This document shows positions 1,671-13,933 of a stretch of 64,000 nucleotides of DNA, piece after piece (positions within the stretch are counted from its first letter, which is position 1; every line of letters begins with the position of its first letter). Under the pieces are notes generated by a model, which saw only the letters and a list, made by a program, of their open reading frames with translations, was not told the DNA's origin and made no database searches. The translations under genes and the position numbers were made by a program. Origin of the DNA: Mesotoga sp. Brook.08.105.5.1. GTDB lineage: Bacteria; Thermotogota; Thermotogae; Petrotogales; Kosmotogaceae. The DNA lies in assembly GCF_002752635.1 (NCBI RefSeq), contig NZ_AYTW01000006.1:62001-126000 (forward strand), read 5' to 3'.

Positions 1671-3488
1671 TTGAAAAAGGTTACCCTTCTTACTCTTCTT
1701 ATACCTGTTTTCGTGCTCTTCACGGGGTGTAACTCTCCGTTCATTACTAGAGATGATTTTCTTGCAAAGATGGATGCTATTGAAGAGAAGATTGACTCTA
1801 TTGCTCTTAGTCAAAGGAAGATAGTTGAGCTTGAAGATGCTGTACAGGAGCTTGCCTTTCGCATAAACTTTGTTCAAGCAATAGAGCCCACCTATACAGG
1901 CTATGATGAGCTTGAAGCGCTGAGAGCAGAACTTCAGATAATAAAGAATATGCTTGCTGAATCGGTTATAGACTCCGCCTCGTCTGCAGCAATCGTTAAG
2001 ACGCTCTATGACAAGATCGACGGAGTATTGACCAGCTCGGTAGAAACCAACATAATGACGCGGGAGATCGACGATCTTAACAGAAAAGTCCAGGCCCTAG
2101 AATCTCTGAACTCTTCAAGATACACAGAGCTCGTCCAGAGAATCTCCGAAGTGGGTAGCTACGACAGCTCAATTGATGAGGCGAAATTCGAAGAGCTCCT
2201 CAGAAGAATAGAAGAGATAAAGAACACTGAAGTTGTTGTTGTTCAACAGGAGCCTGAGCGAGATGACGGGAAATACGAAGAACTCGTGCGAAAGATCGAG
2301 CAGCTTGCAGCAAGAGCGGATACTTCAGCCATCGATAGCGCAAGATATGATTCGATTGCAAGGAGGCTTGCAGAACTTGAAGAGACTGTTGGATCGGCCG
2401 TTATAGATGCAGAGGTTTTCAACGAACTGGTATTGAGGATTGAGGAAATGGACTCCAGGACACGCGAGCTTGCGGTCAATCTAGAGGCTATTGAGCAACA
2501 GGAACAGCCTGAACAGAGGGATTATGTGACAATGACCACCTTTCTTGGAGAGATTTCCGATATTCGCAGCAGACTTGGCGCGGCAGCTTACGAGACCATA
2601 GAACCAATGTCTTACGTGTCATACATAGTCAAATCGGGCGACAGTCTGTGGAACATTGCACAGGCTTACGGTGTCACAGTAGATCAGCTGAAGGAAATGA
2701 ATCCTCAGGTCAAGAACTGGGACCTAATATTCCGAGGGGATGAGATAAAGATACCTCTCTCACTGGATAATCTTATGGCCAAGGCATCAATCGCTACTCA
2801 TTTCGGCTTGAGTCTTGGGGTTGACTTTCTCGTTGATTCAATTGAATCGAACTTCGGAAGCTATGATTACGGCTATGCCAACCCGGGAATGGATCTGACC
2901 GTCCCGCCGAATTCCAGGATAACCGCCTTTCTTCCCGGTAAAGTTATTCTCTCGGAGCGAGTAAACGATCTTTACGGTGAGATGGTTGTTGTCGATCATG
3001 GGAACAACCTTAAGACTGTCTATGCACGCCTGGGAAGCCGAACGGTTATCAAGGGTGATTTTGTAAGGGTTGGAGACACCATTGGATTGGCATCAGATGC
3101 AAAGGGAAATCTCCACTTTGAATTCTGGAAGGCAGATGTCCCTGTGAATCCAGCCGATATAATCTTCGATAATGTGGGGACTTTTGAGGTTACAATGTAC
3201 ACTGAGTGGGATGATGCAAAGAATCCTACATCGCCTTCTTTCAAAATGACTGCAAGTGGGGATTTCGTGAAGGGATATCGAACGGTTGCCGCCGATCCCA
3301 GCGTAATTCCTCTTGGCTCGATTGTCTATATTCCGTTTTTCTCGTCCTCTCCGAACAAGGGATTCTTTGTTGTTGAGGACACCGGTAGTTCTATAAGGGG
3401 TAACAAGATCGATGTTTACACCCATGATTTCAATATCGCGTCGAGTTTCAAAGAAGATCTTCTGGTATATGTGGTGAAGCGCCCTTGA
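1671..3488 (+). CDS. Lipoprotein with coiled coil, LysM, degenerate LytM and 3D domains
   Basis: About 605 residues. A lipoprotein signal (MKKVTLLTLLIPVFVLFTGC) is followed by a long coiled-coil region (~30-300), a LysM peptidoglycan-binding domain (YIVKSGDSLWNIAQAYGVTV, ~318-363), a LytM/M23-like beta domain (~395-500), and a C-terminal 3D domain (~505-605) with Asp542 (ADPSVIPLG), Asp570 (VEDTG) and Asp581 (NKIDVY), the three aspartates that name the family. 3D domains share the MltA lytic-transglycosylase barrel fold. In the LytM part two conserved His are replaced: the HxGxD motif reads N404-P-G-M-D408 and HxH reads N480-L-H482, so zinc peptidase activity is doubtful. Start TTG 1671 is chosen because the G-rich site at 1653-1661 is well spaced; TTG 1662 overlaps it. 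Confidence 0.85.
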   Translation: MKKVTLLTLLIPVFVLFTGCNSPFITRDDFLAKMDAIEEKIDSIALSQRKIVELEDAVQELAFRINFVQAIEPTYTGYDELEALRAELQIIKNMLAESVIDSASSAAIVKTLYDKIDGVLTSSVETNIMTREIDDLNRKVQALESLNSSRYTELVQRISEVGSYDSSIDEAKFEELLRRIEEIKNTEVVVVQQEPERDDGKYEELVRKIEQLAARADTSAIDSARYDSIARRLAELEETVGSAVIDAEVFNELVLRIEEMDSRTRELAVNLEAIEQQEQPEQRDYVTMTTFLGEISDIRSRLGAAAYETIEPMSYVSYIVKSGDSLWNIAQAYGVTVDQLKEMNPQVKNWDLIFRGDEIKIPLSLDNLMAKASIATHFGLSLGVDFLVDSIESNFGSYDYGYANPGMDLTVPPNSRITAFLPGKVILSERVNDLYGEMVVVDHGNNLKTVYARLGSRTVIKGDFVRVGDTIGLASDAKGNLHFEFWKADVPVNPADIIFDNVGTFEVTMYTEWDDAKNPTSPSFKMTASGDFVKGYRTVAADPSVIPLGSIVYIPFFSSSPNKGFFVVEDTGSSIRGNKIDVYTHDFNIASSFKEDLLVYVVKRP

Positions 3489-4582
3489 AAAGATCAATAA
3501 TGCTTTTTCTTCTTTTCATATTGATTCTTAAAGGTAATGTGTTCGGAACGATCACTTTCGGGCAAAGATATCCACTTGGAGTTATGCCCTCGAGAATTGT
3601 TGAGGTCGAAAACAGCAGCGGAACGTACTACGTTACTCTTGTGAAAGGCGACTCTGAACTAGTTGTTTTCGACGCCAGTTTCAGGCCCATTACGATTTTC
3701 GATACTATGAGAAATGACGGAATTAATGATCTCATCTATAGAGATGGAAAGCTGTACTGCTTTGGATTCTACAGCGGTAGGCTGGTTGTCGTGGATGCTT
3801 CTTTACATCCGAGTAGATGGAAGAAGATCGATGAGATTCCAACATCAAGCAGACTGATTACGGGATCGTTCATAGATGGAAAAATCGGAATACTCACAAA
3901 TGATTATGAGTTCCTGGTACTGGATATTGCTAAGAGAGAGATAATCAAGAGGCACAAACTTCCGGTGATTGGACTCTCTGTGACAGAGGATTCAGAGCAT
4001 TTCTTCATCTCGCTTTTTCACAATTACAATATGTTAACCCGGTCTCATGAAACCGAAAAGGGGCTGCTGGTATTCGATGAATGGGGAAATCTGGTAAAGG
4101 AAGTGAATATCGGCAAGAGACCTTCATACATACATCTCGAAGGCGACAGGCTCTTTCTTATCTCCTACGTTGAGGAGAGTCTAAAGATCCTTTCCAAAAC
4201 TGATTTCAGCGAAATACACACAGTCTACCTTGGCCGGTATCCGAATTTCCCGATAGTCCATAATGGAAAGATATGGGTTGCTCTGACCGGCGAAGACCAG
4301 ATAATGACTGTGGAACTTTCAAGTTACCGGACGGAGTATTATGATCTATTAGGTTGTGGCCCGATAAAAGTCTTTCACAGCGGGGAAAGAATTTACGTTC
4401 TTGAGACCATTACCGGAACACTTGAGATTTTGGATAGCAAAGGAAATACGATAGAATATGTAGAGTTAGATGGCTATCCGGTAGATATTGTTTTCAACGG
4501 GAAGGAAATCGCTGTTTTGCTTCAGGAAGACTGGCAGACAGGAAAGAACACAGGAGCTCTGCTGGTTCTCAAAGCACAATAA
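3485..4582 (+). CDS. Secreted beta-propeller-like protein
   Basis: 365 residues with a Sec signal peptide (MKRSIMLFLLFILILKGNVFG). The rest is built of repeating strands of the kind seen in YncE/NHL-type propellers, for example RPSYIHLEGDRLFLISYVEE, YPNFPIVHNGKIWVALTGED and CGPIKVFHSGERIYVLET. No catalytic motif is visible; such proteins usually act as extracytoplasmic scaffolds. The TTG start overlaps the preceding stop codon by four bases (TTGA), so it is translationally coupled to the LysM/3D lipoprotein and probably works in the envelope with it. Family assignment is from pattern only. Confidence 0.6.
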   Translation: MKRSIMLFLLFILILKGNVFGTITFGQRYPLGVMPSRIVEVENSSGTYYVTLVKGDSELVVFDASFRPITIFDTMRNDGINDLIYRDGKLYCFGFYSGRLVVVDASLHPSRWKKIDEIPTSSRLITGSFIDGKIGILTNDYEFLVLDIAKREIIKRHKLPVIGLSVTEDSEHFFISLFHNYNMLTRSHETEKGLLVFDEWGNLVKEVNIGKRPSYIHLEGDRLFLISYVEESLKILSKTDFSEIHTVYLGRYPNFPIVHNGKIWVALTGEDQIMTVELSSYRTEYYDLLGCGPIKVFHSGERIYVLETITGTLEILDSKGNTIEYVELDGYPVDIVFNGKEIAVLLQEDWQTGKNTGALLVLKAQ

Positions 4583-4596
4583 GTCGGAGGTTTGAA

Positions 4597-6258
4597 ATGG
4601 GTCTTAAAAACATTCTGAGAATCACTCTTTGTTTGTTAATCGTTCTGATGGTTTCTTCTTCATGTCTGGTTCCCAGAGCTAGATTACTGAAGCAGATAGA
4701 TCCTCAGGTTGTCACTGAGGGAGAAACTCTTGAATTATTGCTGGCCAGTTACATTTTGTCAGGGAACGCCGAAGATCTGAATTTCCAGGTTTTGGAAGGA
4801 GTTGGCGAGATCAAGGGAAGTTATTACCTTTACGCTCCCGGTTATGATGAAGCTGGAGAGTACTGGGTAAAACTACAAGCAAGTAACGGTAGTGATTCAG
4901 ATTTCAGAAGGTTCAAGGTGACGGTTATAGATAACAATAGAGCTCCTTCTATAGAAATCAGCGATCTTCGGATTTCAGTCGGCGAGGAAATGGCCATAGA
5001 CTTGAGTGAATTATCGACAGACCCCGACGGTGACTCTCTTACTTATGAGCTAGTAGGCCAGTTTGGGCAGATAATAGGAACAGAACTGTTTTTTGATGCA
5101 AGAGAAATGCAAGTTGGAGTGTACCAGGTAGAAGTTCGGGTGTCGGACGGCAAAGGGGGACAGGGGAGCTGCACTTTTCTGGTCACAGTGTTTGACTCGA
5201 ATCAGCCTCCCGAAATAGTCATTCCTGATTTCATAATCAAAGAGAACGAGACCCTTTCTCTGGACCTTCTTGATTATGCATTTGATCCCGATGGGGATGA
5301 GATTACCTTCGTCTTAATCACCGGTGTGGGAATTATTGAAGGCATTCAATACGTCTTCGCTGCCGATTACGAGAGTTCAGGAACTTATGATGTTGAGATC
5401 GCTGTAAGCGATTCAGAAGGAGCGTCTTCTTCAGGAAGCTTCGAGATAACCGTAATTGATGTCAATAGACCACCTAGCACACCATTCGATCCTGTCCCCA
5501 AAATGGCCGAAACAAGTGTCCCGACAAACACTTCACTTAGCTGGTCATGCGAAGACCTTGATGGGGATTCTTTGTTGTACGATGTCTATCTCGGTAAGAC
5601 TGCGAACACTGTCCTTGTTGCTTCAGGAGTTTCCGGAGAGACTTATACACCGGTTCACCTTGAGGAGGGAGCCCACTACTACTGGAAGATAGTTGCTTCA
5701 GACGGCGAAGACGATACAGAGGGCCCTATATGGGAATTCACCACCGTAATCCCGCCTGTGATTCTGGGAATTGTCTCCGACAAGGAATTGATAGTTTCGC
5801 CCAAGGTTTCTATTGATGGTCAAGACCTGAACATTCCATTGGATTATGTTGCTGAAAGGGATCAGACTCTAGTAGTTGAAATAGATGAACTTCAAGAGTT
5901 TGATTATAGAAAGCCTATCGGAGATGATATTAGGGTCAGCTTTATCGAGTGGGACGACGGGGAGACTTCACCACATAGAGAAATCCTCATGGATCATTCT
6001 TTGAAATTAACTGCAAGATTTTCAGTGACCTATTACTTGAATATTGCGACATCTGCCCGATATGAACAAGAAATACCTGGTGAAGGGTGGCATGATGAAG
6101 GGGCCACAGTTGTTGTTACCGCTCCGAAAATCGAGGGGTACACTTTCAGAGACTGGGATCTTAACGAGACTTATGGGATAGTGTGTGGGGAAGTAATCGT
6201 TGTCAAAATGGATTGTCCGGTGAATCTAGTAGCAAACTATACGCACGATTGCCCATAG
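4597..6258 (+). CDS. Lipoprotein with cadherin-like, FnIII-like and InlB-like repeats
   Basis: 553 residues. A lipoprotein signal ends SSSC near residue 23. Three tandem Ig/cadherin-like modules follow, each carrying the DPDGD-type calcium-binding signature (STDPDGDSLTYELVG, FDPDGDEITFVLITG) and a 'N(R/Q)(A/P)P' linker (NNRAPSIEI, SNQPPEIVI, VNRPPSTPF). Next comes an FnIII-like module (LSWSCEDLDGDSLLYDVYLG ... YWKIVASDGEDDTEGPIWEFTT) and a C-terminal segment like Listeria InlB B-repeats (GWHDEGATVVVTAPKIEGYTF, FRDW). This looks like an adhesive or structural surface protein. It starts 14 bases after the propeller gene behind CGGAGG and closes the envelope operon. Confidence 0.7.
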   Translation: MGLKNILRITLCLLIVLMVSSSCLVPRARLLKQIDPQVVTEGETLELLLASYILSGNAEDLNFQVLEGVGEIKGSYYLYAPGYDEAGEYWVKLQASNGSDSDFRRFKVTVIDNNRAPSIEISDLRISVGEEMAIDLSELSTDPDGDSLTYELVGQFGQIIGTELFFDAREMQVGVYQVEVRVSDGKGGQGSCTFLVTVFDSNQPPEIVIPDFIIKENETLSLDLLDYAFDPDGDEITFVLITGVGIIEGIQYVFAADYESSGTYDVEIAVSDSEGASSSGSFEITVIDVNRPPSTPFDPVPKMAETSVPTNTSLSWSCEDLDGDSLLYDVYLGKTANTVLVASGVSGETYTPVHLEEGAHYYWKIVASDGEDDTEGPIWEFTTVIPPVILGIVSDKELIVSPKVSIDGQDLNIPLDYVAERDQTLVVEIDELQEFDYRKPIGDDIRVSFIEWDDGETSPHREILMDHSLKLTARFSVTYYLNIATSARYEQEIPGEGWHDEGATVVVTAPKIEGYTFRDWDLNETYGIVCGEVIVVKMDCPVNLVANYTHDCP

Positions 6259-6269
6259 GATCGATACTT

Positions 6270-10378: not shown

Positions 10379-12010
10379 ATGAAGAAGATTGTTTTGCTGT
10401 TTTTCATGGTGTTGTCGATGGCAATTCTTGCAAGCCAGGGTACGTTGATATTCAAGGGTACAGATCAATATGACTTATTTTTGGGCAGAAACTTGATTGA
10501 AGGAAAGACGCTCTTTACACCTAATACAGGGATTCCTGAGGGTTTTGCTTCAGTCCAGCTTAAGCAGCCCGTTGTGAAGACTTCTCCAGGAACAGAAATC
10601 CACTTGAGAGTTACTCCACAGTTCCTCATCCACAATTTCGAGCCTTTCAAGGAGAAGGGCTGGCTAAAATCCGTGGTTCCACTTTACTTGAGATACCGTT
10701 ATGATACTCTTAAGCCCTGGCTTGTACTGGGTTTTGAAAGCGAAGTATCCGACCATATCACAGGGTATATAAATCTCGATATTCCAAAAGACTATCGGAG
10801 TTACATCAGTCACGGCGATAATTTTGATTCGAAGCCCTACATGAATTTTCCAGTGGAGCTTTTTGAAGGAAAAATCGAGGCGCTCGATATGAGCTGGCCT
10901 ACTTTCGGCTATGTAACCTACGCAAATGAAAGCTTCTACGCTTCTCTAGGTAGATATAAACTTGCCTGGGGTCCGATGAGAAATGGGCTTGCAATAAGCG
11001 ATGCGTCATCTTATTACGATAATATCTCTTCTTCATATACTACTCCCCTCTGGAAAAACGGCCGGTTCACGTATTCTTTTCTGGTCATTACCCCGACTTC
11101 TCTCCTGAACGATGAAGAATGGATAAAGCAGGGAAAGGTGTGGGATCTCAATCAAAGAAGACCATACACTGAAGGAGCGAAGACGATCATCGGGCATCGG
11201 TTCGATGTTCAGTTTGCAAGCTGGGGAAGGGTCGGGGTAGGCGAGATCAATGTTGTCGGTGGGAAGCACCCCGATCTGAACGATGCCAACCCATTCATCA
11301 TCTTCCACAATACTTACGGTGAAGATTTCTCCAACGTCATGGCTTCGCTCGATTTTTCTCTAGCGCCGTTTAAGGGAATCGAGGTCTACGGGGAAATCGC
11401 CATCGATGACGTTTCGTTCGGTTCGACAGAGGCCGGAGCGCGTGGCAAACCAACGGCCCTGGCTTATGGTGGGGGTCTTAGATACGCGACGGATATAAAG
11501 GGAACGTTGCTTCTTGCCTCTGTGGAGCTCTATCATACAGACACGTGGATGTACAATCGCTGGCAGCCGCTTCTCACATTTACAAACAGAATCTACACAA
11601 AATCCGAACTTCCCGGAAGCAGGGATTTCACGGACTATCCGCTCGGCTTCAAATATGGCCCTGATCTGAAAGGTTTTTCTCTTATGGCAAGTGCGATAAT
11701 GACTAACGGGCTTTCGATCTCCTTCGTTTATGATCATTTCAAACAGGGAGAGGTTACTCTTAAGACACCATACTTGAACATGGAAGAACCTGAAGACGAC
11801 CCCGGTCAGTTTACTAATCCGGAAGATTGGAGTGGCCCCGTCGGTGAGACCGTAAATGCAAATATCATGAAACTTAACATAATGATTCCTTACAGGGACT
11901 TCACTTTCGGAAGCGATTTCTCGATTTATTTCGGAGGTTATTTCAAGAAGAACGGTGGTTATGACAAACCGATTTTCGAAATAAGGCCTTATGTATCTTA
12001 TATCTTCTAG
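10379..12010 (+). CDS. Secreted beta-barrel-like protein, Wzi-like (second of tandem pair)
   Basis: 543 residues with a clear signal peptide (MKKIVLLFFMVLSMAILAS). It is a longer paralogue of the preceding protein: IGHRFDVQF, HPDLNDANPFIIFHNTYGED, EVYGEIAIDDVSFGS, and ASLGRYKLAWGPMRNGLAIS, the last close to the GRDKhxWGPG strand of Wzi-type barrels. The C terminus ends in an aromatic residue (IRPYVSYIF), as outer-membrane barrels usually do, which supports insertion by BamA. GGGAGGTAATTCC precedes the ATG and the gap to the first gene is 12 bases, so the two form an operon. Confidence 0.65.
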   Translation: MKKIVLLFFMVLSMAILASQGTLIFKGTDQYDLFLGRNLIEGKTLFTPNTGIPEGFASVQLKQPVVKTSPGTEIHLRVTPQFLIHNFEPFKEKGWLKSVVPLYLRYRYDTLKPWLVLGFESEVSDHITGYINLDIPKDYRSYISHGDNFDSKPYMNFPVELFEGKIEALDMSWPTFGYVTYANESFYASLGRYKLAWGPMRNGLAISDASSYYDNISSSYTTPLWKNGRFTYSFLVITPTSLLNDEEWIKQGKVWDLNQRRPYTEGAKTIIGHRFDVQFASWGRVGVGEINVVGGKHPDLNDANPFIIFHNTYGEDFSNVMASLDFSLAPFKGIEVYGEIAIDDVSFGSTEAGARGKPTALAYGGGLRYATDIKGTLLLASVELYHTDTWMYNRWQPLLTFTNRIYTKSELPGSRDFTDYPLGFKYGPDLKGFSLMASAIMTNGLSISFVYDHFKQGEVTLKTPYLNMEEPEDDPGQFTNPEDWSGPVGETVNANIMKLNIMIPYRDFTFGSDFSIYFGGYFKKNGGYDKPIFEIRPYVSYIF

Positions 12011-12782
12011 GTTGTGGTGGGACCGGGCGAGCAAGCCCATGAAGCTCAGATGTCTGCTGTCGCTGCAAAGCCGCCCGAGCCTTCAATGGTCAGCGTTTTC
12101 TGAATTCAACGAAGAGGCTAGATGCCGAATTAAGTATATCTAGAGGGGTAAGATTCCGAGCGCGCGTAGAGTTCAGAGGTTTGAAAATCAAGATCGGCAG
12201 GCTTCAATTCGAGAAAAACCATATTCGGGACTACCAAGAGCAGGAAGAGGAAGCAGATCCTTTACGGTATCGTTACTGACAGTACAAAAGGGGTGAAAAA
12301 CGGTATAGATCAAAGGAACCGGTCAGTCCCTGTTTTCATGAGAGCACACACCCCATAGCGAGAGGGCCCCCATCAAGTGGGAATTTAGATCAAAAGTGTA
12401 GAGATTGCGAAGCAGTTTTTTGTTTGACGATAATAACGATCCTTGAAATAAGGAACGAAATGTTTGAGAGCCATATAGAGATCATCTAGGTAATGATGAG
12501 CCATAAGAGCCGCTGTTCGCAGTGAGATAAAGTTCTCCGTCGACGAGTGAGCCTTTCTCTCTTCTATCCCTGTAACTTGCATCTTGTTACGTGCAACCGG
12601 TTTCTTCCTGGAGGAGGACTGCTCACGGTCAAGGGATCTTGGGCTTCAAAGCGCTCAGCTTCTTCAATTAAGCGTCCGGCGGCTATTCTAGAAGCGAAGC
12701 CCTTGACAACGATCTCTCACGGTGCCCAGTGCGCAGCCGAAAAAGGCCTTTACAGCTTTCTTTTTGAATTGCATGAGCTGTC
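12011..12782. other. Gene-poor stretch of about 770 bases
   Basis: I see no gene I can support here. Reading frames of 65-116 codons exist on both strands but lack ribosome binding sites and recognisable motifs. Short pairing elements occur (GGGC...GCCC near 12026-12039, CCCA-TCAAG-TGGG near 12368-12380), but none is a convincing terminator for the upstream operon. Texture is like the stretch at 20388-20773 and suggests decayed coding sequence. Confidence 0.5.
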
Positions 12783-12932
12783 TCAGATAAATCCAAAGAC
12801 AAGAAATCCGATCACGAAGCCAACTATCAGTCCCAGGATCAATCCTCTTGTGAATTTGTCTGGTTTTCTTCCTGGAGTTGGGGATTCTCCTCTTTGACTT
12901 TCTTTGTACCAGTCTCTATCGTAGATTCCCAA
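12783..12932 (-). CDS. Small single-pass membrane protein overlapping the AI-2E gene
   Basis: A 49-codon frame begins at TTG 12932, nine bases after AGGAG. It starts MGIYDRDWYKESQ and ends in a glycine-patterned membrane helix (GLILGLIVGFVIGFLVFGFI) right before the stop. The N-terminal 'G(I/L)YDRDYY' pattern is common at the start of small bacterial membrane proteins. The first 94 bases are shared, in another frame, with the last codons of the AI-2E-family gene, so the helix is the only part outside the overlap. The good site, hydrophobic helix and fitting stop argue for a real gene; function unknown. Confidence 0.6.
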   Translation of the reverse strand: MGIYDRDWYKESQRGESPTPGRKPDKFTRGLILGLIVGFVIGFLVFGFI

Positions 12933-13933
12933 TCATGATCACTCCTCTCTTTTATGATAAACTCCTTCCAGAATCGCTTTATGAAGAGTATCAGAGGCAC
13001 GGCGAACAATACGCCGAAAATTCCGATAAGCTCTCCAAAAGCCACCAGCGATACCAGAATAACAAACCAGTTTATCTTAACACGATGAGAGAGAATTCTT
13101 GGTGAAAGCAGCCACATATCTATCTGATTTGCTATCAAGAGCACAATCGCTCCACCAATAACACCCCAGATGCCGTTTTGAACATAGCCGAGAAGCAGCA
13201 TCGGGATAGTTGTTACAACAACTCCCAAGAAGGGTATGAAATTCGTCATTCCTGCAAGAAGTCCCAGGAAGAGAGCGTTCGGGATTCCCACAATCGCTGC
13301 ACCTGCACCTATCATAATTCCTTCGATTACCGATATTAGAACCTGGCCAGCGACATAGGTCTGAAAATCAGTGTACAGAGAATTGAGAAAACCGGTTACC
13401 CTGGATTGATCGCAGCTGGGGAAGATAATAGGAACCTTCCTTCTCAAGATTCCGGTTCTTCTTGCAATCACGAAGGCCGCTACTATCATGAGAATAATCC
13501 CGGTAATCCATGATGTAATGTTTGAGGCAACATATCTTCCCAGTTCAATAGCACCACCAGTTAACAATTGTGAAGCTCTCTGGGCAAGGTCCGTAACGGA
13601 ATCTGCAATAAACGGAGGAAGTCTTTCGAGCCACTCTTCAAAACTTCCGTCCATGAAGAGGGCATCCATCTCAGTGGCAATACTACGGATTCCGTTGATC
13701 GTAATCGGAATGGCGCTGTACACAAGAAAGAATAAGAAGAATAGCAATACCATTCCAGTAATGATTCCAAGAGCAGTCTTCGATGTTTTCTTTGTAACGA
13801 ATGCGGATGGTGCACTAATTATTAGAGAGAAAAGAAAAGCAAGTCCGATGACCCGCGAGGTCATTGGAAAGAGAAATAGTGTGGAGAATATCGCAATGAA
13901 GTATCCAAGAATCCATAGCCTAGTCTTTTCCAT
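12839..13933 (-). CDS. AI-2E family transporter (permease-like)
   Basis: 364 residues with about eight hydrophobic segments and the family's conserved C-terminal block (GIMIGAGAAIVGIPNALFLGLLAGMTNFIPFLG, then GQVLISVIEG earlier; GVIGGAIVLLIANQIDMWLLSP; FGELIGIFGVLFAVPL). Members include TqsA-type exporters and Na+/H+ antiporters; the substrate here is unknown. The last ~30 residues are hydrophilic and are encoded by DNA that also carries the start of a small membrane protein in another frame. Start ATG 13933 is followed by EKTRLWILGYFIAIFS. Confidence 0.88.
   Translation of the reverse strand: MEKTRLWILGYFIAIFSTLFLFPMTSRVIGLAFLFSLIISAPSAFVTKKTSKTALGIITGMVLLFFLFFLVYSAIPITINGIRSIATEMDALFMDGSFEEWLERLPPFIADSVTDLAQRASQLLTGGAIELGRYVASNITSWITGIILMIVAAFVIARRTGILRRKVPIIFPSCDQSRVTGFLNSLYTDFQTYVAGQVLISVIEGIMIGAGAAIVGIPNALFLGLLAGMTNFIPFLGVVVTTIPMLLLGYVQNGIWGVIGGAIVLLIANQIDMWLLSPRILSHRVKINWFVILVSLVAFGELIGIFGVLFAVPLILFIKRFWKEFIIKERSDHDWESTIETGTKKVKEENPQLQEENQTNSQED

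Follow-up and report, generated by a model that had tools for sequence, protein, structure and literature searches.

A small frame at the end of a transporter gene

Does a 49-codon open reading frame that runs out of phase across the end of an AI-2E transporter gene encode a protein and, if so, which of the two genes has come to lie over the other? The question is raised by a 64,000-nt stretch of the genome of Mesotoga sp. Brook.08.105.5.1 (contig NZ_AYTW01000006.1, positions 62,001 to 126,000), the whole of which we call the window, and where a first-pass annotation made from the letters alone had proposed an overlooked small membrane protein. The features discussed here are the following.

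12783..12932, minus strand: small membrane protein gene, 49 codons, MGIYDRDWYKESQRGESPTPGRKPDKFTRGLILGLIVGFVIGFLVFGFI (open reading frame, orthologues in the family, purifying selection)
12942..12946, minus strand: Shine-Dalgarno AGGAG, nine bases ahead of the TTG (similar sites in relatives)
12839..13933, minus strand: AI-2E family transporter gene of 364 codons, just upstream and in the same orientation (PF01594)
12839..12932, minus strand: overlap of the two genes, 94 nt, where the transporter tail has phase +1 relative to the small gene (sequence)
12906..12932, minus strand: near-invariant N-terminal motif M-[GS]-I-Y-D-R-D-[WY]-Y, codons 1-9 (alignment, N-termini from other phyla)
12792..12857, minus strand: predicted membrane helix, codons 26-47 (hydropathy, AlphaFold)

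The frame is present in the window, although its end lies at 12932, one base away from the coordinate originally given (12783-12933). It starts with TTG and stops with TGA, and an in-frame stop codon directly precedes the TTG, so that no upstream start is possible and the TTG is the first that could be used. The 49 codons, the AGGAG nine bases 5' of the start and the 94 bases common to the small and AI-2E frames (12839-12932) can all be read in the sequence as first described. The identity of the neighbour holds as well, since it matches PF01594 with an E-value of 4e-39; the domain ends at residue 324 of 364, and the overlapping tail of the transporter falls outside it.

Conservation in the family

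Whether the frame and its start are kept in close relatives was the check proposed from the outset, and the small gene passes it. Within the genus, the TTG and its Shine-Dalgarno are retained in 7/7 sequences, where the start reads TTG-GGA-ATC-TAC, while the start codon is ATG in the other genera of the family. A search with the single sequence returned close matches within the genus (75-98% identity) and weaker ones across the family; a profile built from 12 small-protein sequences, with the G102 candidate left out, detects the protein in 13 of the 17 family genomes (E 2e-24 to 3e-16) and in all five genera sampled. The profile did not find it in the remaining four (G026, G027, G030 and G022). 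However, in G026 and G027 the contig breaks off within the outer-membrane-type gene next door, and the completeness of G030 is 78% and that of G022 83%; little weight can therefore be put on these four absences.

Beyond the family, the profile gave candidates in two genomes, G102 (E 3e-7) and G101 (E 6e-5), both lying between nitroreductase-like and methionyl-tRNA synthetase-like frames, which were named by sight from their translations; these candidates are probable distant relatives. A first weak match in G101 (C104) lay in unrelated sequence, and the profile gave the better candidate on C54. Apart from G101 and G102, matches in other Thermotogota families reflected similarity between hydrophobic stretches, mostly inside larger frames, and were dismissed. 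In another family of the class, small MDRDYYKEHW membrane proteins (L052:1486-1635, minus strand, and L039:4478-4633, plus strand) are flanked by nitroreductase-like and methionyl-tRNA synthetase-like genes. The small protein itself has no match above the curated cut-off in Pfam or NCBIfam, and searches of PDB sequences and plasmids with it returned no relative.

Which of the two frames is kept

The pattern of substitution among the same-genus sequences shows that the small gene is under selection on its encoded protein. In codons 33-49, which lie outside the overlap, the variable columns number 6/17, 1/17 and 16/17 at the three codon positions (third against other positions, Fisher p 5e-7, with columns treated as independent), and pN/pS outside the overlap is 0.086-0.13, the two values coming from slightly different codon ranges. 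Where the genes overlap, the small-gene frame has a pN/pS of 0.36 and the transporter frame one of 1.26: it is the small protein that is kept, and not the tail of the transporter. The membrane helix, mostly outside the transporter gene, is the most constrained part of the protein.

These data bear directly on the suspicion that the frame is open by chance, preserved through constraint on the coding sequence of the transporter. Small out-of-frame ORFs are indeed common in the window. Nevertheless, a frame of this origin would not be expected to have its most constrained part largely beyond the transporter gene, nor to be kept where the transporter is absent or in another phase, and the codon-position pattern contradicts it; we rejected this reading, which we regard as very improbable.

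The arrangement of the two genes tells a similar story. In each of the genera g1, g2, g3 and g4, the small gene lies 3' of the transporter and in the same orientation. In the window's genus the transporter has phase +1 relative to the small gene and reaches its stop at +91 or +94; in g4 the phase is +2 and the stop comes at +14 (G021) or +77 (G020). In G018 the transporter ends ahead of the small gene with no overlap, and in G019 a gap of about 357 nt lies between them. Through all these differences in phase and overlap, the N-terminus of the small protein remains [MGS]-IYDRD[WY]Y. Since the transporter side varies while this N-terminus stays, the small gene is the constrained partner, with the transporter tail running into it, and the tails in the two genera are unrelated extensions over one conserved gene. 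The first-pass description of a small protein overlapping the AI-2E gene thus had the polarity reversed, as it is the transporter tail that intrudes. Such a tail would have extended over the small gene most simply through the loss of an earlier stop codon. In G019 (L034) we also noted stacked palindromic units with a 21-nt spacing at 4082-4152, 1384-1489, 3254-3304 and 6198-6261; one of these arrays sits in the gap between transporter and small gene.

The association with the transporter is not obligatory. In G033 the small gene occupies its usual place, but the transporter is missing from the site, and only a remote AI-2E paralogue (~28%) is present elsewhere. Although the G033 assembly is fragmented, with 280 contigs, the sequence at the small gene is unbroken. 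G032 also keeps the small gene and has no close copy of the transporter elsewhere in its assembly, although a run of N (an assembly gap) lies upstream, so the absence of the transporter there is not proven.

The same comparisons speak against ribosomal frameshifting, by which the two frames would be joined into a longer transporter with an extra C-terminal helix. The overlap of 91-94 nt in the window's genus speaks for such an event, yet the phases differ between genera, G018 and G019 have no overlap, the small gene stands alone in G033, and it has its own Shine-Dalgarno and start. We consequently rejected the fusion as extremely improbable.

The predicted product

That a membrane helix stands just before the stop, as first described, is borne out by two approaches. 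Residues ~26-47 of 49 reach a hydropathy of 2.92 over 19 residues, and AlphaFold places a helix at 26-47 with a mean pLDDT of 94 in residues 31-40; it also draws a helix at 3-15 with low confidence, the N-terminal part having a mean pLDDT of 61-69. The best 19-residue hydropathy is 1.6-3.1 in 13/13 aligned members. The 64-kb window contains 42 ORFs of 30-100 aa that have a Shine-Dalgarno-like match, and of these only the small ORF has a strong membrane helix. Every member combines a variable charged linker, mostly basic, with a C-terminal hydrophobic helix and no charge after it, and hence, following the positive-inside rule, we infer an N-in, C-out topology.

Taken as a whole, the small ORF is very probably a real gene for a single-pass membrane protein, to which we give a probability of about 0.93. 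Its product would consist of a short cytosolic N-terminus starting MGIYDRDWY[KR]E, a charged and probably flexible linker, and one C-terminal helix in the inner membrane, and it would be translated from its own Shine-Dalgarno, which lies within the last part of the transporter frame. A point against this is the weakness of TTG as a start codon.

The message that carries the gene may extend from the transporter. Directly 3' of the small-gene stop, a strong hairpin is found in five same-genus species (z -3.7 to -8.1), running into T-rich sequence in three of the five; it is absent in the window species and its closest relative. These hairpins are consistent with a transcript end after the small gene and would fit a transporter-small gene message, and the small gene is probably cotranscribed with the transporter. 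Behind the small gene, the window species has ~770 nt without a conserved ORF (12010-12783).

An N-terminus that recurs in other phyla

The N-terminus GIYDRDW had been described as like that of known small membrane proteins. This is true in part, since MGIYDRDWY does open single-pass proteins of other phyla, but no named family was matched. When ~85,000 species genomes were scanned for IYDRDWY, 21 stretches came up, 11 of them with further similarity; seven of these 11 lie outside the phylum, and all seven start exactly at ATG-GGN. By chance, and assuming uniform bases, the heptapeptide would be expected ~34 times and an ATG-GGN ahead of it ~0.02 times in 18, a figure that is indicative only, as confirmation favours matches that take in the first residues and the ten stretches left unconfirmed were not in view.

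MGIYDRDWY[RK] opens single-pass proteins in records from Treponema, Clostridiales, Dechloromonas, Methylomonas and Aquabacterium, some of which carry further domains (SH3 in one, a retropepsin-like protease in others). The small protein fits the pattern of this set: M-G-I-Y-D-R-D-[WY]-Y stands at its very beginning, and a charged linker and a helix come after it. It shares with proteins such as the retropepsin-like one of Dechloromonas and the SH3 one of Treponema the first nine residues, the charged linker and the hydrophobic stretch; it differs from them in that most have an extra domain, while the small protein ends at its helix. The similarity is a short one, confined to about the first 13-27 residues.

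In its strict spelling at least, the motif is sparse in the genomes we scanned: matches came from 2/369 and 2/391 genomes of two classes, seeds included and with one of the four false, and none came from 60 family relatives of the Methylomonas MAG. The false match was in G592, where YDRD reads YDSD, and we took a match in Chroococcus (L077) as chance, as the motif there lacks a start codon and lies in a frame of 17 residues. Literature searches for the motif found nothing. A genome from the class to which Aquabacterium belongs also encodes a single-pass protein starting MGLYDRDWYRESQKKK, with an N-terminal YDRD (L118:981-1529, minus strand).

Discussion

Two readings of what the protein does have to be weighed. 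It could be a subunit dedicated to the adjacent AI-2E transporter, with an accessory or regulatory part such as AcrZ plays for AcrB. In four genera the small gene comes right behind the transporter, in the same orientation and often with an overlap, and single-pass proteins that modulate transporters, such as AcrZ (49 aa) and KdpF, are established (PMC7267776), which makes the transporter a reasonable first candidate partner. The likeness to AcrZ/AcrB and KdpF/Kdp lies in the very small size, the single helix and the adjoining or co-regulated transporter gene; we claim no relation in sequence, and the N-terminus of AcrZ is periplasmic whereas that of the small protein is predicted to be inside. 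The small protein is not a member of the AI-2E / UPF0118 family (PF01594), to which its neighbour, possibly on the same message, belongs; functions within that family vary and include AI-2 export and Na+(Li+)/H+ antiport (PMC7221264). Against a dedicated subunit stand the retention of the gene in G033, where only a remote paralogue exists, and the probable relatives in G101 and G102, which adjoin nitroreductase-like and methionyl-tRNA synthetase-like genes instead. Retention without the transporter suggests that the protein has another partner or an additional role, and we consider the subunit reading possible but rather doubtful.

Alternatively, the protein could be an independent member of the set of YDRD single-pass proteins, with a motif that docks a common cytosolic partner and a transporter that is a mere neighbour. 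The MGIYDRDWY[RK] N-termini found across phyla, placed after ATG-GGN far above chance by our rough estimate, speak for this; the rarity of the strict motif, and the fact that a nine-residue match could be convergent, speak against it. We consider this a serious possibility that falls short of even odds. It is tempting to speculate further that otherwise unrelated bacterial single-pass proteins share, in the YDRD N-terminus, a cytosolic signal for docking or sorting, and that the small protein is the minimal form, signal plus anchor, but we think this rather unlikely.

As its most likely action, the helix may dock on a membrane partner while the YDRD end binds something cytosolic, akin to the small proteins that tune transporters, a scheme we put forward very tentatively. 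The AI-2E transporter would be the first candidate for this partner, and others are possible, because in one relative the small gene is found at a site where the transporter is missing.

It is plausible that automatic annotation would miss the gene, as had been supposed. Prodigal limits same-strand overlaps to 60 bp (PMC2848648), which prevents it from calling both genes at full length in the window's genus, where they share 91-94 nt; the 14-nt overlap of G021 is within this limit. Our analysis thus adds a conserved small membrane protein in a family where the overlap limit of the gene finder would hide such a gene. It also shows transporter tails that have grown over a small gene in two genera and in two phases. 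Finally, if the YDRD motif is a common signal, the small protein would offer a compact handle on a partner shared by several phyla.
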